In this document: positions 17,094 through 27,922 of the stretch, one piece after another
How the letters are laid out: every line of letters starts with the position of its first letter
How positions within the stretch are numbered: position 1 is the stretch's first letter
Virus record (IMG/VR): IMGVR_UViG_3300045051_001039
Span: 1 to 28,984 of that record
Length of the DNA: 28,984 nt
Direction: 5' to 3' (one strand)
Source: a virus
The notes under the pieces: generated by a model
What the model saw: only the letters and a program-made list of their open reading frames with translations
The model's database searches: none
What the model was told of the DNA's origin: nothing
Program-made: the position numbers and the translations under genes

Positions 17094-17810
17094 TTAGCCT
17101 CTTAACCAATCTTGCTGTTTCAAGTCTCGCAACGTCATCTCGCCCGTGTCCGCACCGACACTAGAACTTGATTTCAGGCGTTGAAGAGGTTCACGTGGAC
17201 TGACGTTTCCTTGTAATGCTTGCTGGTTTTTGACAATCGATTGAGACAATTTTTCCATCTCTCTCTTTGCCATCTTCGGCGAGTGCATCGCAAGGTCGTT
17301 AAGGTGAGTCAGTTTTGAGGGGTTTTTGGCCAGCTCGTACATGATGCCCGCTGTATCTAAGGGCTGTCCGTCCGATCCGGTCTCTGCCGCCAAAAATGCG
17401 ACTCTTGGGAAGGCGTGCGGTTCGAAATCCTGCATGACTTCTTCAAAATCTGAGTACTTGCTTTTGCCGGCACCCATTTTCAGATAAAAATCATCCGCGG
17501 CTTTCTGTAAATCCTCGCGTTCCTTTGCGGCTTGGGCTTCTTGCGCTTTCTTTTCCTCTTGGGCATCCATTTCCTGCGCTTTCTGCATGATGTGATTTAA
17601 CACCTCTTGCTTGATCGCATCCATGTCTGGCCCTTGAGACATGCCGCCCATTTGCTGGGGCTGCATCTTTTGCGCCATTTCGGCTTCCATTTCGCGCCGT
17701 ACTCGCTCGGCAACCTGCGCTTTTTCCCTCTTAACTATGTCATTTACTTGGCTCTGTGGAAGCATCTTCTCTTCTACAGGTGCCATCACGTCCTGTGTTA
17801 CTTCATCCAT
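17094..17810 (-). CDS. Scaffolding protein
   Basis: This 238-residue, highly charged, helical protein has a Gln/Met-rich middle (MAQKMQPQQMGGMSQGP) and a long Ala/Lys/Glu helix. The C-terminus is basic and ends in LKQQDWLRG, as expected for scaffolds that bind coat through a basic C-terminal helix. It lies directly before the coat gene. The start is uncertain. The ATG at 17810 puts EKMLPQSQVN near the N-terminus, where I recall it in similar scaffolds. A TTG at 17882 would add 24 basic residues but has no ribosome site. P22 scaffold is 303 residues, so this is shorter. Confidence 0.7.
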   Translation of the reverse strand: MDEVTQDVMAPVEEKMLPQSQVNDIVKREKAQVAERVRREMEAEMAQKMQPQQMGGMSQGPDMDAIKQEVLNHIMQKAQEMDAQEEKKAQEAQAAKEREDLQKAADDFYLKMGAGKSKYSDFEEVMQDFEPHAFPRVAFLAAETGSDGQPLDTAGIMYELAKNPSKLTHLNDLAMHSPKMAKREMEKLSQSIVKNQQALQGNVSPREPLQRLKSSSSVGADTGEMTLRDLKQQDWLRG

Positions 17811-18030
17811 AAAATCCGCTATTTCCCCGCGACGGTGTGTCCTGCGTATCGCTTGCAGTATGCGTTTGACATTCCTTGTCAAAAGAGTGTGTCGGCCCCG
17901 GTTTAGCTGTCCGGTACAGTGAGGTGGGGGTCTTTAAGAATGCACGTCCTGTGCTAAATTCCTTCCATGCTCAATTTGAGCCTAGCATATCCATAGAAAC
18001 GCGCAAGGCTCGTTCGATGACTTATTTAAC
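17811..18030. other. Non-coding upstream part of the late control region
   Basis: No credible gene is visible here apart from the uncertain 5' extension of the scaffold frame to 17882. A 13-base palindrome, GCTCAATTTGAGC, lies at 17969-17981. If transcription of the scaffold-coat operon starts near 18175, this stretch is a long 5' leader of its mRNA. Confidence 0.4.
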
Positions 18031-18179
18031 AAACGAAACCCGGCACAAAATTGATGAGGTTTCGTTTCTTTGACAAATGTCCACCCCTGACGGTGCAAAA
18101 ATTATGTACCGTCAGGAGGTTTCCCAAAACATCACAGCTAATGTCACAATGTGAGAAAATTACATTAGCCGTGATGTTT

Positions 18180-18208
18180 TTTATGACTATTGAGTGTCTA
18201 TATGGCAA
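18180..18208 (-). promoter_or_regulatory. Possible leftward promoter for the scaffold-coat operon
   Basis: On the minus strand TTGCCA (18208-18203), 17 bases, then CATAAA (18185-18180). The -35 matches five of six consensus positions and the -10 only four. The -35 lies in one arm of IR4. It would give a ~360-base leader containing IR1 to IR3. Confidence 0.3.
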
Positions 18209-18230
18209 AAGTGGGTCAAAATGGTCAGTT

Positions 18231-18260
18231 TTGCCATAACATAACCGCAAATGGTAAAAT
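18231..18260 (+). promoter_or_regulatory. Possible rightward promoter for the small membrane gene
   Basis: TTGCCA (18231-18236), 18 bases, then TAAAAT (18255-18260), five of six matches in each box. The -35 lies in the other arm of IR4 and the -10 in the left arm of IR5, so a factor binding IR4 could control both directions. Confidence 0.35.
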
Positions 18261-18365
18261 GACCTTCACCAAAATAAATATTGGATAGGTTTTTGGTCAT
18301 TTTAGGAGTACGCGCATAACATACAGATCAATTGGATTGGCGAAATATGTGATGCCTCGGCAAAG

Positions 18366-18560
18366 TTGCTGGGGAAATATGGGACATGGCTGTCGATAAA
18401 GAAAAACCGATGGTACTTCATTGTCCATACGGTTTGTTGCATCTACTGGGTTGGAATTAACTTACATCGTAATCTTTACGCCCAGGCATTGTTTACCATA
18501 CCGACAATTGCCCTTCACTTGTATGGGTTCTATACCTGGGGGAAAAAGAAGGGCGATTGA
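18366..18560 (+). CDS. Small membrane protein resembling a PnuC-type half
   Basis: The frame encodes GTWLSIKKNRWYFIVHTV and then two hydrophobic helices, ending YGFYTWGKKKGD. The pattern (WxxxKKNRWxF, helix, short polar loop with YAQALF, helix, W plus Lys tail) resembles the C-terminal part of PnuC-like nicotinamide riboside transporters, which phages also carry as very short versions. Transport by so short a protein is doubtful. No ATG exists in frame. The listed start is a TTG without a ribosome site, but coding-like sequence (INWIGEICDASAKLLG) extends back to about 18321, 12 bases after AGGAG (18304-18308), so a non-standard start is possible. Its stop abuts the stop of the convergent gene with no spacer. 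Confidence 0.5.
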   Translation: MLGKYGTWLSIKKNRWYFIVHTVCCIYWVGINLHRNLYAQALFTIPTIALHLYGFYTWGKKKGD

Positions 18561-18773
18561 TTATTTTTTACCCTTTTTTAATACCTTTCTGGCTTTCGCT
18601 TTGACCTTATCGGCAGCGCTGGCGGATATATTGCCTTTGTTTTCTTGCTGGGCAACACGGGCCAGGGCATTTTTGGCATGATTCTTGTCATTAACTGGGT
18701 ATTTTCGATCGCTCGGTTCTGCAAACGACGATTTCGGTAACTTATTTCTTGCTTTCGAACTTAATTTGGCCAT
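18561..18773 (-). CDS. Small basic phage protein (MAKLSSKARNKLPKSSFA family)
   Basis: This 70-residue protein starts at the second of two adjacent ATGs, seven bases after AAGGAG. The text MAKLSSKARNKLPKSSFA, then DRKYPVNDKNHAKNALARVAQ, matches a common small phage and bacterial protein family; I believe it is DUF6582, from memory. The C-terminus is Lys/Ala-rich. The biochemical role is unknown to me. It is the last gene of the terminase-portal block and converges on the small membrane-protein gene. Confidence 0.7.
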   Translation of the reverse strand: MAKLSSKARNKLPKSSFAEPSDRKYPVNDKNHAKNALARVAQQENKGNISASAADKVKAKARKVLKKGKK

Positions 18774-18909
18774 CATCTGACTCCTTGATTAATTGTGCCG
18801 GCACTTTCCATAAATCCATCAACCGAATTACCTTCGGATTTCCTAAAATCTCGTTGCGCATATTTTTGTACACGCGCTCTTTACGAACCTCTTCCTTCTT
18901 TCGATACAT
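18742..18909 (-). CDS. Small charged protein
   Basis: The ATG at 18909 has AAAGGA eight bases upstream and opens 55 codons in a different frame from both neighbours. The product (MYRKKEEVRKERVYKN, then NPKVIRLMDLWKVPAQ, ending FESKK) is helical and strongly charged. It overlaps the upstream gene by 29 bases and the downstream gene by 35. It carries one full GTGCCGGCAC palindrome (18795-18804), read as V-P-A-Q. Family unknown. The good ribosome site and protein-like composition are the reasons for calling it. Confidence 0.6.
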   Translation of the reverse strand: MYRKKEEVRKERVYKNMRNEILGNPKVIRLMDLWKVPAQLIKESDDGQIKFESKK

Positions 18910-22749: not shown

Positions 22750-22957
22750 AATCGTCAATCAATCCTTCGATTTCCGCTTCGTGATGTAGATAATATACCG
22801 CATAACAACAAAGTCGGCTTGCATATTTCCCAATGTACGTGATGGTGCTTTTTCCGTGTTCACCGCTTTCCTGGTCATGACAGGCGTCACAACAGACATA
22901 CGGGGCATTGACTGCTTTCAATATTTCACTGCATCGAACGGGGATATATTTTGCCAC
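22727..22957 (-). CDS. Small Cys/His-rich protein before terL
   Basis: The product of ~76 residues contains CCDACHDQESGEHGKS in its first third and LCCYAVYYLHHEAE near the end. The CxxCH plus His pattern could bind zinc. The GTG at 22957 has AAGGGA six bases upstream, whereas the ATG at 22990 has no ribosome site, so I chose the GTG. It is the first gene of the leftward terminase-portal block, back to back with the rightward early operon. It might be a small nuclease-like or terminase accessory protein, but no known family is recognised. Confidence 0.5.
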   Translation of the reverse strand: MAKYIPVRCSEILKAVNAPYVCCDACHDQESGEHGKSTITYIGKYASRLCCYAVYYLHHEAEIEGLIDDYVFPGKK

Positions 22958-23006
22958 GAAAATTCCCTTTTTGGCCGGCACACCTTTCATGATATATCAA
23001 TGACGA

Positions 23007-23035
23007 TTGATTGTTTAGGTGTAATGACATATGAT
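23007..23035 (+). promoter_or_regulatory. Sigma70-like promoter for the early operon
   Basis: TTGATT (23007-23012), a 17-base spacer and TATGAT (23030-23035). The -10 matches five of six positions and the -35 four. A short inverted repeat TCAAT-gacg-ATTGA (22998-23011) overlaps the -35 and could be an operator for the downstream helix-turn-helix protein. The expected start near 23042 would give a ~40-base leader before the ATG at 23081. Confidence 0.45.
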
Positions 23036-23080
23036 ATGCAAATCACTACTTGGAATGGTAATGTACATGGAGATATAACA

Positions 23081-23653
23081 ATGGAATTATTAACGGAAAA
23101 CGAGGCTGCGGATATTATCAAAATGTCTGTTCACTGGCTTCGTCGAGCCAGACACAAAAAAGAACCCAATCAACCCCCTTATCTAAAGATTGGAAGTAGC
23201 ATTAGGTATGAAAAAAAAGAAGTGATGAAATGGTTAAGAGAAAAGAAAAAATTCAAAACTGGAAAGGAAGAGGGTATTAAAATGGCAGATGCAACATCTC
23301 TTAGAGAGAAAAACACAACAGGCAAATATATATTGGATTCTAACGGTGACCCCGTTCAATGTAATAGCGTTACCGAATGGGGCAAGTGGATGGAAGACAG
23401 ATCGACCATATTGCAAAGAATTTTGTCCCGCACAACGATCCGAACAAACCCAAACGTACACGTGTCTACCGTGTTCCTTGGCCTCGATCATAATCATTGC
23501 TTCGGTAGCTTGGCCGTACCCATATTATGGGAATCTATGGTATTCGGGGGCGAATCTGACGGGGAGCAAGAACGATATTCAACAAAAGAGGAAGCCATCG
23601 CCGGCCATTTAAAGCTCGTTGATGAACAAAGGGGTTTATTAAAGAATGATTGA
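23081..23653 (+). CDS. Helix-turn-helix protein fused to a phage early protein
   Basis: This 190-residue product starts at an ATG seven bases after GGAGA. Residues 1-58 look like an excisionase/MerR-type winged helix: LTENEAADIIKMSVHWLRR, then PPYLKIGSSIRYEKKEVMKWL. Residues 68-190 match a different, widespread small phage protein: KYILDSNGDPV, WGKWMED, VHVSTVFLGLDHN, LWESMVFGG, QERYSTKEEAIAGH. The Met at residue 68 (23282) has its own GGAAGAGGG seven bases upstream, so a 123-residue second product is likely. The first part could bind DNA and autoregulate the operon. The role of the second part is unknown to me. Confidence 0.7.
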   Translation: MELLTENEAADIIKMSVHWLRRARHKKEPNQPPYLKIGSSIRYEKKEVMKWLREKKKFKTGKEEGIKMADATSLREKNTTGKYILDSNGDPVQCNSVTEWGKWMEDRSTILQRILSRTTIRTNPNVHVSTVFLGLDHNHCFGSLAVPILWESMVFGGESDGEQERYSTKEEAIAGHLKLVDEQRGLLKND

Positions 23654-23876
23654 CGATGAATTGATGAACGCGTTACACACCACATTTTCTTGCCATTTGG
23701 AACGTAAACAAGAAATGTCGGGGCACGTTGTAATTGCAACCTTGCTGGCGTATGTAGTGTCTGAGTTATCGCACGGCCTTCTTGCTAGACCAGAACATAT
23801 GAAGGCAAACAAAGAAAATATGGTTAACGCATTTAAAGTATTGTTGGATTCAGTAAAAGAACCGACAACGCATTAA
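23646..23876 (+). CDS. Small hypothetical early protein
   Basis: This 76-residue protein overlaps the preceding gene by eight bases. It is helical, with a hydrophobic centre (GHVVIATLLAYVVSELSHGLLA) that could be a helix in a small bundle or, less likely, a membrane segment. I recognise no family. Its stop codon ends two bases before the tRNA-like gene, so both are probably on one transcript. Confidence 0.55.
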   Translation: MIDDELMNALHTTFSCHLERKQEMSGHVVIATLLAYVVSELSHGLLARPEHMKANKENMVNAFKVLLDSVKEPTTH

Positions 23877-23878
23877 TG

Positions 23879-23952
23879 CACAAAGTAGCTTAATTATGGC
23901 AAAGCAATCGACCCATAATCTTTGGTTGCCGGTTCGAATCCGGCCTTTGTGC
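23879..23952 (+). tRNA. Degenerate tRNA-like gene, anticodon CAT
   Basis: The 74 bases fold as a cloverleaf. The acceptor is CACAAAG / CTTTGTG and can be extended by G23878-C23952. The D arm is GCTT / AAGC with GG in a ten-base loop. The T arm is GCCGG-TTCGAAT-CCGGC, with a canonical loop. The anticodon loop is CCCATAA, giving CAT (Met, or Ile if lysidine-modified). Two defects stand out. Position 33 is C, not the near-universal T, and the anticodon stem ATCGA / TCTTT has T-T and C-T mismatches at pairs 28-42 and 29-41. CCA is not encoded. It may be a decayed tRNA, a decoy, or one repaired or edited after transcription. Confidence 0.6.
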
Positions 23953-23970
23953 GCTTGATAGGAGACAGTA

Positions 23971-24324
23971 ATGGATAGATACATTTGGGTTAAACACGCA
24001 GACGGCGCACCGTTCCGTAAAGAGATTAATGAAAAGTTGGCGCAAGGGTACAAATTGGCCGGCACCATTATTTCGGTTGAAGGGGCGACATACCGATACA
24101 TTCAACCAATGATCATGCCCGAAAAGAAATGGAAGGAACTTCAAAAAGAAATAGGGGTTGTATTGCATGGGAAAAATGGCGACTTTACTCTTTACTCGCG
24201 AGATTGTGGGATCATAGTGACGAACGAACGTTTGGGAATTTGCGTAGAGTTACCCCATTATGCTGCAACCGATCTGTGGCCATTATTTAAATTGTACTCT
24301 GAAGAGTTTGCGAGGAAAAAGTAA
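23971..24324 (+). CDS. DUF1737-like domain protein
   Basis: This 117-residue protein follows an AGGAG site 18 bases downstream of the tRNA-like gene. Residues about 15-50 (FRKEINEKLAQGYKLAGTI, ending in YIQPMIM) match the small DUF1737-type module, which has a helix, then GY/GW, a glycine and strands ending in QPM or QAM. The remaining ~65 residues add a second part, rich in aromatic residues, without a known match. It shares the module with two other early genes here. Function of the module is unknown to me. The dispersed 8-mer lies in it at 24058. Confidence 0.6.
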   Translation: MDRYIWVKHADGAPFRKEINEKLAQGYKLAGTIISVEGATYRYIQPMIMPEKKWKELQKEIGVVLHGKNGDFTLYSRDCGIIVTNERLGICVELPHYAATDLWPLFKLYSEEFARKK

Positions 24325-24509
24325 TGTTTAGATTAATATGTTTTGGACTTTGTTGCGTATCTTTCGGGTGGACTACGGCTTATGTGATCAACCATAGGCA
24401 CGTGTTATCAAACGGAACGGTTTGCGGTATCAGTTTATTGGGAATTCTGACCACATTCGTTACTTGTTGCGTAACATTTTATACCACAAGTTTATTGTTG
24501 GCGGGGTAA
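24324..24509 (+). CDS. Small membrane protein with two helices
   Basis: This 61-residue frame starts within the previous stop (TAATG). Residues about 3-22 and 35-60 are hydrophobic and separated by VINHRHVLSNGTV, so a two-helix hairpin in the inner membrane is likely. It has five Cys. A holin, an antiholin or a superinfection factor could look like this, but no family is recognised. Confidence 0.55.
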   Translation: MFRLICFGLCCVSFGWTTAYVINHRHVLSNGTVCGISLLGILTTFVTCCVTFYTTSLLLAG

Positions 24510-24512
24510 TCA

Positions 24513-24734
24513 ATGACCGTCGCTAAATTTATAATAATTTCTCACCCCAGGGCTGGGGCAGTCGAAGAAAAGGTATCTGAATTATTGAACGATGGTTATG
24601 AGTTAGCGGGGCCATTGTTTTATACCGAAAAAGGACTTGTACAACCAATGGTTAAGTATACGTTTCCAAAAAATCCACCACCGCCCCTAAATATATCTCA
24701 TTGCTCAAAATGTTGTACGCGGGGCTTTATATGA
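24513..24734 (+). CDS. Second DUF1737-like small protein
   Basis: A 73-residue protein begins MTVAKFIIISH. AVEEKVSELLNDGYELAGPL and then QPMVKYTF follow, the same module as in the gene at 23971. A Pro-rich link leads to SHCSKCCTRGF, a possible CxxCC metal site. GGGG lies close to the ATG. It overlaps the next gene as ATGA. The MTV start is shared with the three genes that follow. Confidence 0.55.
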   Translation: MTVAKFIIISHPRAGAVEEKVSELLNDGYELAGPLFYTEKGLVQPMVKYTFPKNPPPPLNISHCSKCCTRGFI

Positions 24735-24955
24735 CAGTCGCTGAACTTATCGAAGAACCATGCGCCGAATGTGAAGCCCTGTCATTATGGACAATATATA
24801 TAACGCAGCTCAATGAAGAATTTAGAAAAGATATATTAAAAGACCATAAATACGAATATGAAGCGGAAGCGAGATTTGTGTGCGAGCAGCTTCTAAAAAG
24901 AGGGCATCACGTTCACATGGTTAAATTTCAAGGAGTTTGTCGTGACCGTATCTGA
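24731..24955 (+). CDS. MTVxELIE-leader protein 1
   Basis: This 74-residue protein is read from the ATG overlapping the previous stop. The first eight residues (MTVAELIE) are almost those of the two genes that follow, at the DNA level too. The rest (EPCAECEALSLWTIYIT, then a helical EARFVCEQLLKRGHHV) is unrelated and matches no family I know. It overlaps the next gene by 14 bases. Confidence 0.5.
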   Translation: MTVAELIEEPCAECEALSLWTIYITQLNEEFRKDILKDHKYEYEAEARFVCEQLLKRGHHVHMVKFQGVCRDRI

Positions 24956-25154
24956 ACTTATCGAAAAACTTCGTGAATATCCTCAAAATCAAGTTGTTAA
25001 TATATGGATAGCTGGAAAACGTGAACCTGGTCATTATCGTATCAGACATACAATGGAGAATGTGGGGGTATCAAAATATTATAAATGTACTGTTTTGGTT
25101 CCAAGCGATGTGATTGTGGACGGTCATGCATATACGGAGGGGTTAGAGGAATGA
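24942..25154 (+). CDS. MTVxELIE-leader protein 2
   Basis: This 70-residue protein starts at a GTG seven bases after AAGGAG. It begins MTVSELIEKLREYPQNQVVN, and the body has short strands with IRHTMENVGVSKYYK and VLVPSDVIV. I know this opening (helix, then YPxxxxV) from many short phage early proteins, whose function is mostly unknown. It overlaps the next, paralogous gene as ATGA. Confidence 0.55.
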   Translation: MTVSELIEKLREYPQNQVVNIWIAGKREPGHYRIRHTMENVGVSKYYKCTVLVPSDVIVDGHAYTEGLEE

Positions 25155-25363
25155 CCGTAAATGAACTTATCGAAGAGCTGCGGAAGTATCCGCCGGATAT
25201 GGTTGTGTTAAAGTTGTTCCCCACCATTAGAGGACACAACGTATTATATCCAGACCCACATATCGAGAAAGTGGATTCAATAAACACCGGTACTGATTAT
25301 CACATACCTAGCGATGATGATTATTACCCCGATGCAATAACGGTTGAAGTGCTCTGTATCTAA
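25151..25363 (+). CDS. MTVxELIE-leader protein 3
   Basis: This 70-residue paralogue of the preceding gene begins MTVNELIEELRKYPPDMVV. The body is different (PTIRGHNVLYPDPHIEK, then an acidic PSDDDYYPDAI). The ATG overlaps the previous stop and has GAGGA directly upstream. Its own stop lies inside the left arm of a hairpin (25357-25382) that recurs at 28135. Confidence 0.55.
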   Translation: MTVNELIEELRKYPPDMVVLKLFPTIRGHNVLYPDPHIEKVDSINTGTDYHIPSDDDYYPDAITVEVLCI

Positions 25364-25382
25364 TAACAGACATTATCGGATA
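25357..25382 (+). repeat. Intercistronic hairpin, copy 1
   Basis: TATCTAATAA (25357-25366) and TTATCGGATA (25373-25382) flank a six-base loop. Nine of the ten positions pair as RNA, one of them U-G, with a single A-C mismatch. The left arm includes the stop codon of the upstream gene. There is no T-run, so it is not a standard terminator. The same arms recur at 28135-28162. Confidence 0.55.
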
Positions 25383-25400
25383 TAGATTTAGGAGAGAAAA

Positions 25401-25607
25401 TTGTATAAAAACATGTCTGCCAAGTTCAAGCAGATGAAATTATATGCACTTGCGCAGCTTTGTATTGCAGATTACTTGCGAGGTTATGGGGATGAGTCTA
25501 ATGAATTTGTTGAGATGCTAAAGGAGTTAGATGATTATGCTGCAAAATGGTTAAGCAAGCATTATCCGTTGGATGAAGAACAAACCACCCCGCAGGAGTC
25601 GGCATGA
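25401..25607 (+). CDS. Small hypothetical early protein, TTG start
   Basis: The 68-residue frame starts at a TTG about six bases after AGGAG. The in-frame ATG at 25413 is 18 bases away and less likely. The product is helical and acidic at the end (LDDYAAKWLSKHYPLDEEQ). I recognise no family. The gene follows hairpin copy 1 and is coupled to a possible 18-codon frame by an ATGA overlap. Confidence 0.5.
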   Translation: MYKNMSAKFKQMKLYALAQLCIADYLRGYGDESNEFVEMLKELDDYAAKWLSKHYPLDEEQTTPQESA

Positions 25608-25660
25608 CCATATCCCCGACGTCAGGAAAATGGTTACCAATTTGTTGGCGTCAACAATAA
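25604..25660 (+). CDS. Possible 18-residue coupled peptide
   Basis: An ATG overlaps the upstream stop as ATGA and has AGGAG six bases before it. The frame has 18 codons (MTISPTSGKWLPICWRQQ) and ends ten bases before the next gene. Overlap and ribosome site are as good as those of its neighbours. It may be a real small peptide or a linking frame that carries ribosomes to the next gene. Confidence 0.35.
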   Translation: MTISPTSGKWLPICWRQQ

Positions 25661-25669
25661 GGTGAGAAC

Positions 25670-25939
25670 ATGAAACAATACCGTAAACGTCCGTTAATAA
25701 TTGAGGCTGCCCAATGGAACGGCGAAACATTGGATGGTCAACACGCGCGAACTGTGCTAGGTGACGAATATTATTATGGTTGCTGCAACGAGGATGGCAT
25801 GCTTTTTGATTTGATGGTTAAAACTTTAGAGGGCGTCATGACTTGCGAGGTTGGTGACTGGCTGATTAAGGGCATCAAGGGCGAGTTTTACCCATGCAAG
25901 CCGGATATATTCGCAGAGACATACGAGGCGGTCGAATGA
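25670..25939 (+). CDS. Phage early protein of the KYRKRPxxIEAxQW family
   Basis: This 89-residue protein has the signature start YRKRPLIIEAAQWNG. Further on it has TLEGVMTCEVGDWLIKGIKG and EFYPCKPDIFAETYE. I know this small family well from many phages and prophages (sometimes called PGDYG-type after its GDW/GDY turn), but its function is not established as far as I know. The start has AAGGTGAG upstream. It overlaps the next gene as ATGA. Confidence 0.75.
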   Translation: MKQYRKRPLIIEAAQWNGETLDGQHARTVLGDEYYYGCCNEDGMLFDLMVKTLEGVMTCEVGDWLIKGIKGEFYPCKPDIFAETYEAVE

Positions 25940-26115
25940 AGAGTTACACAGTCCACGAGGCCGATCAAATGGCGTCATTCATTAAAGAGTTGTTCAATAT
26001 GTTGAAATCGGGCAACGAAGTTATGGCCACCCAAATATTTGAATTGGGTTTGGATTGTGAAGTGTTTAAGGTTATTCAGGAAGACCCCACGGTAGCATTG
26101 GAGGATTGGTTTTAA
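25936..26115 (+). CDS. Small acidic helical early protein
   Basis: The 59-residue frame is coupled to the previous gene by ATGA and has GAGG seven bases upstream. The product (from YTVHEADQMASFIKELF to the acidic end ALEDWF) is helical, with no motif I can name. A longer frame from 25894 would overlap the previous gene without a ribosome site. Confidence 0.5.
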   Translation: MKSYTVHEADQMASFIKELFNMLKSGNEVMATQIFELGLDCEVFKVIQEDPTVALEDWF

Positions 26116-26117
26116 TT

Positions 26118-26270
26118 ATGGACAGAGTTCAGTCGTTAGAGAAATTCATAGCAGAGTTTGGCGCGTATCTTAAGGGTTACAATTGTAGTAGCGATGGATA
26201 TGACGAGATACAAGAGATTATCGAAAAGTTTGACGAATTAATGTGGGAACATGTCGACAAACCGCAGTAA
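26118..26270 (+). CDS. Small acidic protein
   Basis: An ATG two bases after the previous stop opens 50 codons. The product has a helical start (MDRVQSLEKFIAEFGAYLKG), a short loop (YNCSSDGYDE) and a second helix (IQEIIEKFDELMWEHV), so it is probably a two-helix protein. The ribosome site is weak; translation may depend on ribosomes from the gene before. No family recognised. Confidence 0.45.
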   Translation: MDRVQSLEKFIAEFGAYLKGYNCSSDGYDEIQEIIEKFDELMWEHVDKPQ

Positions 26271-26296
26271 TTCGTACATATAAAAGGGATATGTCG

Positions 26297-26557
26297 ATGG
26301 AATGGACACGACAATTAATGATTGTGCCGGCACTCTTCCTTTGTGGGTGTGGCGAATCATACGAAACAACCTATTCGAAACCTTACGTGGTTGTCTGTTC
26401 TGGAGTCCGCAACAACTGGTTCCGCGAGATAGACACCAAGCGATTAAGCGAGCGTGTAAACGATTATATTAACCACGGGTATACGGTGTCGGGTAACCTT
26501 ACTGGAACACGTGGGGAGATTTGCCAGACCTTGGAGAGGATGAACAATGACACCTGA
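26297..26557 (+). CDS. Putative lipoprotein with a DUF1737-like domain
   Basis: This 86-residue protein starts eight bases after AAGGG; an ATG six bases earlier is too close to that site. Residues 1-17 (MEWTRQLMIVPALFLCGC) fit a lipoprotein signal, with Gly-Cys at the cleavage site and a hydrophobic core before it. The mature part ends with LSERVNDYINHGYTVSGNL and EICQTLERM, similar to the DUF1737-type modules encoded at 23971 and 24513. If exported it would face the periplasm, where a phage lipoprotein could act in superinfection exclusion or lysis control; this is inference. A full GTGCCGGCAC lies within the signal region (26324-26333). Confidence 0.55.
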   Translation: MEWTRQLMIVPALFLCGCGESYETTYSKPYVVVCSGVRNNWFREIDTKRLSERVNDYINHGYTVSGNLTGTRGEICQTLERMNNDT

Positions 26558-26729
26558 ACAAATACAGAACATACAAACCGCATTAGAGAGATACCCCGAC
26601 CGGCGTGACGAAATCATGCAGAGAGTGGCAGCAGCGACGAAGTTATCGGCATTAATTGTTGAGTTGGGCGGAACATTGGGTTTGTTTCAAGAGTTCCAAC
26701 CAAAGGAAAAAGAATGTACCAGCAAGTAA
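26547..26729 (+). CDS. Small helical protein directly before rtcB
   Basis: This 60-residue protein overlaps the previous gene by 11 bases and the rtcB-like gene by 16. It is helical, starting MTPEQIQNIQTALERYPDRR, with a Gly-rich turn (VELGGTLGLF) in the second half. The ribosome site is GGAGAGGA a few bases upstream. The tight overlap with rtcB suggests co-expression; a functional link cannot be shown. Confidence 0.5.
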   Translation: MTPEQIQNIQTALERYPDRRDEIMQRVAAATKLSALIVELGGTLGLFQEFQPKEKECTSK

Positions 26730-27922
26730 TCAAGGAAGAGGGCGCACACCCCATCAAGATATGGACGAAAAACATAGAAGACAGTGCGTTATCACAATTA
26801 AAGAACATTGCCCGCTTGCCGTTCATACATCACCACGGTGTGGTTGCAATGCCCGACGTTCACATGGGGGTCGGCGCAACGATTGGCAGCGTCATAGCCA
26901 CAGATAGGGCCATTATACCGGCAGCCGTGGGGGTTGATATTGGTTGTGGCATGTTGGCCGTTAAATTGTCGTTGACTGCCTCTGATTTGCCCGATGATTT
27001 GGGGGCAATTCGGTCAGCGATTGAACGGGAAGTGTTGCAAGAACATATGCAAGACGCGCGTTACGATAATACAGTTCGCTCATATCGCCAAATGATGATT
27101 GACCTTGAAGACATGTTGAGGCGTCACGGCATATTGAAGAGTGGCCGACACATCACTTACGGTTTGGACAAGGCAATCCATCAAATGGGCACATTGGGCG
27201 GGGGCAATCATTTCGTTGAATTATGCTTGGACGAATCACAAAATGTTTGGGTAATGTTACATTCTGGCAGTCGGGGCATTGGTCACATGATTGGAACTTA
27301 CTTTATTGAACTGGCCAAACAAGATATGGAAAGGTTTTTTATTACGTTGCCCGATCAAGACCTTGCATATTTCCCCGATGGAACCGCGCACCACGGTGAT
27401 TATGTTGACGCCGTCGAATGGGCGCAGCAATACGCCTATCACAATAGGCAAGCAATGATGTGCGACGTTGTTATGGTTCTAAAAAAGTATGTGCCGGCAC
27501 AATTTAATATCATCAATGAAGCCATTAATTGCCATCACAATTACGTTAAACGTGAACATCACTTTGGTAAGAATGTGTGGGTCACACGCAAGGGCGCAAT
27601 CAGGGCACGCAAGGATGATTTGGGTATCATTCCCGGATCGATGGGCCAGCGTTCGTATATCGTGCGCGGTAAGGGTAATTATGATTCGTACCACTCATGC
27701 AGTCATGGGGCCGGGCGTGCGATGGGACGCAATCAAGCAAAGAAAAAGTTTACCGTCGATGATTTGATTGCCCAGACAAAGGGCGTGGAATGTCGTAAGG
27801 ATGAACACGTATTAGATGAAATACCGGGGGCATACAAAGACATTGACGTTGTGATGGAGAATCAAAGAGATTTGGTTGACGTGGTTCATATATTAAAACA
27901 AGTGTTGTGCGTTAAGGGGTGA
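26714..27922 (+). CDS. rtcB: RtcB RNA 3'-phosphate/5'-hydroxyl ligase
   Basis: This 402-residue protein is full length (E. coli RtcB is 408). RtcB enzymes join RNA ends with 2',3'-cyclic phosphate or 3'-phosphate to 5'-hydroxyl ends, using GTP and Mn. Active-site motifs are present: MPDVHMGVGATIGSV (46-60), VGVDIGCGM with the metal-ligand Cys78, LGGGNHFVEL, HSGSRG, NCHHNYV, GIIPGSMG and SCSHGAGR, whose His is the guanylylated residue of the family. In phages such ligases are thought to mend host or phage tRNAs cut by defence anticodon nucleases. AAAGGA lies eight bases before the ATG. No archease gene is visible in the window. Confidence 0.95.
   Translation: MYQQVIKEEGAHPIKIWTKNIEDSALSQLKNIARLPFIHHHGVVAMPDVHMGVGATIGSVIATDRAIIPAAVGVDIGCGMLAVKLSLTASDLPDDLGAIRSAIEREVLQEHMQDARYDNTVRSYRQMMIDLEDMLRRHGILKSGRHITYGLDKAIHQMGTLGGGNHFVELCLDESQNVWVMLHSGSRGIGHMIGTYFIELAKQDMERFFITLPDQDLAYFPDGTAHHGDYVDAVEWAQQYAYHNRQAMMCDVVMVLKKYVPAQFNIINEAINCHHNYVKREHHFGKNVWVTRKGAIRARKDDLGIIPGSMGQRSYIVRGKGNYDSYHSCSHGAGRAMGRNQAKKKFTVDDLIAQTKGVECRKDEHVLDEIPGAYKDIDVVMENQRDLVDVVHILKQVLCVKG

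Follow-up and report, generated by a model that had tools for sequence, protein, structure and literature searches.

Five clustered inverted repeats in a lytic phage group, including a conserved 38-bp palindrome, as candidate operator-type sites between divergent promoters

Results

The virus record analysed here (the window) is 28,984 bases long and belongs to a metagenome-derived phage group. Between its 71-aa gene and its scaffold gene it carries five inverted repeats (IR1 to IR5), which are confirmed as real and lie far more densely than expected by chance. IR4, a palindromic element of 38 bp, is conserved in this lytic phage group and has had no name until now. With moderate confidence, we read the array as palindromic sites of operator type in duplex DNA, placed between divergent promoters and reshaped by template switching; among the options that the initial annotation had listed for this region, an operator array fits best.

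A dense array of inverted repeats in an accessory-gene slot

IR1 (AAACGAAACC-N17-GGTTTCGTTT; positions 18031-18067) has arms of 10 bp and a loop of 17, IR2 (CCTGACGGT-N13-ACCGTCAGG; 18086-18116) arms of 9 bp and a loop of 13, and IR3 (18126-18180) arms of 19 bp with one odd position and a loop of 17. They are followed by IR4 (TATGGCAAAA-N18-TTTTGCCATA; 18201-18238) and IR5 (TAAAATGACC-N30-GGTCATTTTA; 18255-18304), both with arms of 10 bp and with loops of 18 and 30, respectively. The set agrees with the initial description of four perfect repeats of 9-10 bp and one 19-bp stem with a single odd position. Only five perfect inverted repeats (arm 9 or more, loop 3-32) occur in the whole 29-kb window, and four of these are in the array. 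The 661 bp from 17900 to 18560 thus hold four perfect repeats, compared with a mean of 0.087 and a maximum of 2 in 1000 shuffles, and shuffles of the whole window never clustered more than two within 300 bp; the shuffled-sequence control proposed at the outset therefore upholds the clustering. Across the phage group, inverted repeats are 11 times as dense in noncoding as in coding DNA; the array has approximately fifteen per kb, noncoding DNA elsewhere in the group one.

The terminase large subunit, portal, 71-aa, scaffold, capsid and head-closure genes of the window all run leftward. The array occupies a slot flanked by portal and scaffold, with the scaffold gene (17094-17882, minus strand) downstream of the repeats and the Lys-rich 71-aa gene (phrog_16160; 18561-18776, minus strand) on the other flank. 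The region had been described as having no gene, but it is more than plain intergenic DNA: 2 bp beyond IR5, a rightward ORF of 84 codons begins (18306-18560, plus strand), matching the first 70 of the 175 positions of PF04973 (NMN_transporter). Its 5' end lacks ATG, GTG and TTG, which suggests either that a rare start codon opens a short PnuC-like protein or that the gene has decayed. IR5 overlaps a -10-like hexamer with its left arm and adjoins the Shine-Dalgarno-like AGGAG of this ORF with its right. On the opposite side, a promoter-like block for scaffold and capsid (TTGC-N12-ATATGCTAG-N-CTCAA; 17976-18006, minus strand) follows about 20 bp downstream of IR1; relatives conserve this block whether or not they carry the array. 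With the rightward ORF on one side and this block on the other, the array is situated between two divergent units. A predicted rightward promoter, TTGCCA-18-TAAAAT (18231-18260, plus strand; 10/12, with TG before the -10), is formed by the right arm of IR4 and the left arm of IR5; the number of promoter-like matches, in the array region as in the window, is not above that in shuffles. A leader motif resembling ACCGTSRCGGGG-AAYAG stands just before the scaffold start codon in the window and in most relatives, even distant ones, and is possibly a conserved leader element of the capsid operon.

Among relatives the slot varies in content: L018 has a YopX-like gene there and L006 another small gene, of which L007 retains a remnant, while G018 has an HTH-type gene, L005 an AcrVA2-like gene and L015 apparently an HNH-type gene. 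The array is seen only where the slot has a rightward gene or its remnant, that is in the window, L018, L006 and L007 (remnant of 16 codons), while G018, whose slot also has a rightward gene, bears IR4 alone of the array. The contig of L005, which has the same flanking genes and a capsid protein 94% identical, is devoid of the array throughout. The initial annotation had held that related phages of the same gene order lacking the repeats would speak against structures kept for shape and loop, and L005 bears this out in part. Since its AcrVA2-like gene is located between portal and scaffold, the slot can hold anti-defence genes. The two homologues noted of AcrVA2, an anti-CRISPR protein, are at L005:3706-4737 (plus strand) and L117:7233-8240 (minus strand; PDB 7ci1, E 8.8e-13 and 1.5e-15). 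Elsewhere in the window, between the small and large terminase genes, a rightward accessory block opposite to the structural genes (22856-27922, plus strand) includes an HTH_17/Xis-like protein, a tRNA and an RtcB RNA ligase.

The group is known solely from metagenome contigs, many of them fragments. Known phages gave no convincing DNA match to the window, and their capsid proteins reached about 21% identity at best. The label 'lytic' is used because no tyrosine integrase (PF00589) was found in ten contigs of the group; for the same reason a phage attachment site is considered unlikely.

IR4 is conserved across lineages and lies close to predicted promoters

IR4 occurs as one copy per contig in eight lineages. 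The same arms with the 18-bp spacer are present in the window, L018, L006/L007, G009 (L044/L279) and G008 (L043), a version with shorter arms in G018 (L236), and a weaker form in L280 and L285. A profile built from the window, L006 and L018 only recovered IR4 in G009 (E 3.5e-5), G018 (5.8e-4) and G008 (8.9e-4), and a six-lineage profile run on portal relatives added L280 (3e-5) and L285 (4e-4). The portal is related to that of the window in every carrier except G008; G008 and G001 have the 71-aa gene, the small terminase and the replication gene in common. Conservation is higher in the arms (1.73 and 1.44 bits per column) than in the spacer (1.10). By inspection, IR4 contains two direct GGCAAAA-like copies 10-11 bp apart and one inverted copy, seen most clearly in G018 as GGCAAAATGG GGCAAAAAGG GTC GGTTTTGCC. 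A search for the IR4 arms in 84,980 prokaryote species genomes gave 41 scattered matches with no common spacer or host group, which we took as chance, and a motif scan for other arms around the IR4 spacer yielded no convincing new arms among the matches listed.

In four lineages IR4 lies 13-30 bp upstream of a predicted promoter of sigma-70 type (consensus match), and hence outside the downstream transcript. In L279, L280 and L285 the promoter-like sequence is TTGAC[AT]-18-TACTAT of the terminase operon, with its -35 element 13-14 bp past IR4; in G008 it is TGGACG-17-TATAAT, 28 bp past IR4. The promoter adjoining IR4 is weak or uncertain in the window, L018 and L006, which we count against the operator reading. 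At the orthologous place upstream of the terminase operon, the IR4 spacer of L280 and of L285 is inverted relative to that of L279 (p 0.001 and 0.048).

As operator-type DNA, the region would constitute a double-stranded control region of the accessory-gene slot, set between the rightward promoter of the slot gene and the leftward promoter of scaffold and capsid. The inverted repeats would serve as palindromic binding sites, of operator or activator type, for one or more dimeric proteins. IR4 would be the conserved core site, with its two direct boxes one helical turn apart and the inverted third copy, and a protein bound there may repress or activate the neighbouring promoter; the element would work as a duplex DNA site in either orientation near promoters. 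The near-perfect arms, the differences between arms and the inverted spacers would largely stem from replication template switching at existing palindromes. A dyad-symmetric site with conserved arms was found for IR4 (eight lineages) and IR2 (three). IR1, IR3 and IR5 are lineage-specific and have no orthologues, so that it is their position only that suggests the same job as IR4 for them. A co-occurrence comparison within the group turned up no gene family that accompanies IR4. We count this against the operator reading, although it would fit a host regulator as the candidate binding protein. IR4 offers a concrete target for finding the regulator of the group's operons and of the accessory slot.

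Palindromic operators between divergent phage promoters are known from lambda OR. The present array is alike in placing several dyads between divergent promoters, with sites that overlap or abut -35 and -10 elements, and differs in that its five dyads have unrelated arms, rather than being one repeated site, and spacers of 13-30 bp. The PeSL regulatory cassettes of T4-type phages combine a promoter with a stem-loop at sites of gene gain and loss. They share with the array the occurrence of promoter and stem-loop units where genes come and go, but belong to another phage group, and here there are five inverted repeats, one of which is conserved across lineages. A literature search on stem-loop promoter cassettes found no paper in the collection covered.

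Template switching probably accounts for much of the form of the repeats

The arms of IR2 are conserved in L006 and L007 and decayed in L018, where three positions are mismatched; changes in the arms of IR4 and IR2 in L018 are mostly uncompensated. Matches to the IR2 arms in viral contigs outside the group were scattered, mostly in GC-rich contigs and with unrelated spacers. Between L006 and L007 the IR2 spacer is inverted, and L007 has gained a 20-bp palindromic insertion (L007:4902-4923) in DNA that is otherwise almost identical. Published work attributes to replication template switching the creation of hairpins, the inversion of spacers and the homogenisation of arms (PMC8604942, PMC8794818), and both changes are marks of this process. 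The pair illustrates, in nature and on a small scale, how spacers invert and palindromes arise. Compared with L018 and L006, IR3 is an inserted segment of about 65 bp, and at the place of IR1 other hairpins are found in L018, L006 and L007.

These observations raise the alternative that the array is mutational and mostly functionless, template switching having made and perfected palindromes where the genome has its longest run of tolerant noncoding DNA, with IR4 and perhaps IR2 as the only real sites. The events separating L006 from L007, the discrete insertion of IR3, the differing hairpins at the IR1 place and the decay of IR2 and IR4 arms in L018 all argue for it. We consider it unlikely nevertheless: repeats are far denser in the array than in the group's other noncoding DNA, a loop core common to all five (see below) is not expected from such a process, and the entire array is unchanged in L002, L003 and L004. 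The likeness to published template-switch hairpins extends to arm homogenisation, spacer inversion and new perfect palindromes; being a mutation process, however, template switching accounts for the form of the repeats and not for the conservation of IR4 (PMC8604942, PMC8794818).

Despite the common loop core and strong folding, relatives do not support an RNA reading

The initial annotation had pointed to AAAAT in each loop, and this core is indeed present in all five. With each loop shuffled so as to preserve its own dinucleotides, a shared 5-mer was obtained with p 0.003 on one strand and 0.006 on either strand, so that the common core exceeds chance modestly. Loop alignment wider than the core reached no significance (p 0.08). 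Other long hairpin loops of the group contain AAAAT in 1 of 31 cases (Fisher p 1.6e-5, a post hoc test). RNA folding of the array gave a z of about -7.4 on both strands.

The core and the folding would suit RNA hairpins recognised by a loop-binding factor, whether in a structured leader, a small RNA or an array of protein-binding RNAs, and the slight covariation at the IR4 stem base points the same way. By pair counting, IR4 has 5 pairs with a double change, a number reached in 3/500 shuffles; these are mostly at the stem base and in single lineages, and the sample of eight lineages is too few for a firm test. Covariation of the outermost pairs is not needed by a purely sequence-specific site and counts against the operator reading. 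The covariation check proposed at the outset accordingly gave a mixed outcome, with some signal for IR4 and none beyond shuffles for IR2.

Several results nonetheless make RNA hairpins quite unlikely. The equal z on both strands means that folding favours neither, and the preference for a leftward RNA drawn earlier from the odd position of IR3 (G-U on one strand, A-C on the other) concerns one base pair only. At gathering threshold, Rfam matched nothing in the window except a tRNA at 23879-23952. Because the conserved promoter-like block of the scaffold gene comes downstream of the array, the scaffold leader does not include the repeats; IR4, moreover, sits upstream of promoters and flips its orientation to them between relatives. 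Finally, the AAAAT core is retained in two of the eight IR4 spacers, some of which are inverted, whereas the arms are conserved. The argument of the initial annotation that arms are free and loops kept for shape and sequence consequently fails, and its check on loop-motif conservation came out negative. A very strong fold score combined with a shared loop motif can thus mislead, as the conserved arms and inverted spacers of relatives reveal.

Repeated loop motifs on many hairpins characterise RNAs of the CsrB/RsmZ type, whose loops carry GGA. The array is similar in having many hairpins with differing arms and one loop core; it differs in its loops, which are without GGA, in the loss of the core among relatives and in the location of its sites upstream of promoters. 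We see a very slight chance that the repeats form a diverged hairpin family, whose common A/T loop core would be recognised single-stranded (as RNA or extruded DNA) while the arms are freely replaced by template switching. If true, this would represent a recognition system sensing shape plus loop.

Terminators and replication origins

The repeats, above all IR3, might alternatively act as a transcription insulator made of terminators, which would keep the portal operon, the slot gene and the capsid operon from reading through into one another. The IR3 stem on the plus strand is preceded by AAAA and followed by TTTTTT, and in L010 and L017 this interval has a GC-rich hairpin with a T run. A terminator scan, however, found no intrinsic terminator (GC-rich stem, short loop, T run) between 17850 and 18400, no T run follows the stems of IR4 or IR5, and the array separates divergent rather than convergent units. 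An insulator is very unlikely on these grounds.

An origin or other once-per-genome replication site, an option also raised in the initial annotation, would be compatible with the single IR4 per contig, with the proximity of IR4 to an O-like initiator gene in G008, L280 and L285, and with three DnaA boxes in the same interval of G018. In the window and in G008, by contrast, no DnaA box was found, L005 does without the array, and GC skew gave no origin signal at the array. The O-like initiator genes themselves contain repeats, three of 22-23 bp in G001, G008, L280 and L285 and two in G002. With iterons of lambda type inside the initiator gene, the array is probably not the origin, and we regard this option as scarcely probable at all. 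The iterons of the lambda ori share their arms and sit in gene O; the array resembles them in its succession of imperfect, A-centred palindromes, and departs from them in its differing arms and in that the O-like genes here bear iterons of their own.

The direct repeats in O-like genes are at L113:18450-18523, L117:11684-11757, L280:6054-6123, L285:6153-6218 and L115:9673-9718, and their sequence is different in each phage. They are probably lambda-type origins with exchanged iterons. The initiators of G001 and G002 are 37% identical, compared with 84-96% for the neighbouring genes. The DnaA boxes of G018 (L236:6375-6405; TTATCCACA) follow one another 11 bp apart within the slot, with the IR4 homologue on one side and the scaffold gene on the other.
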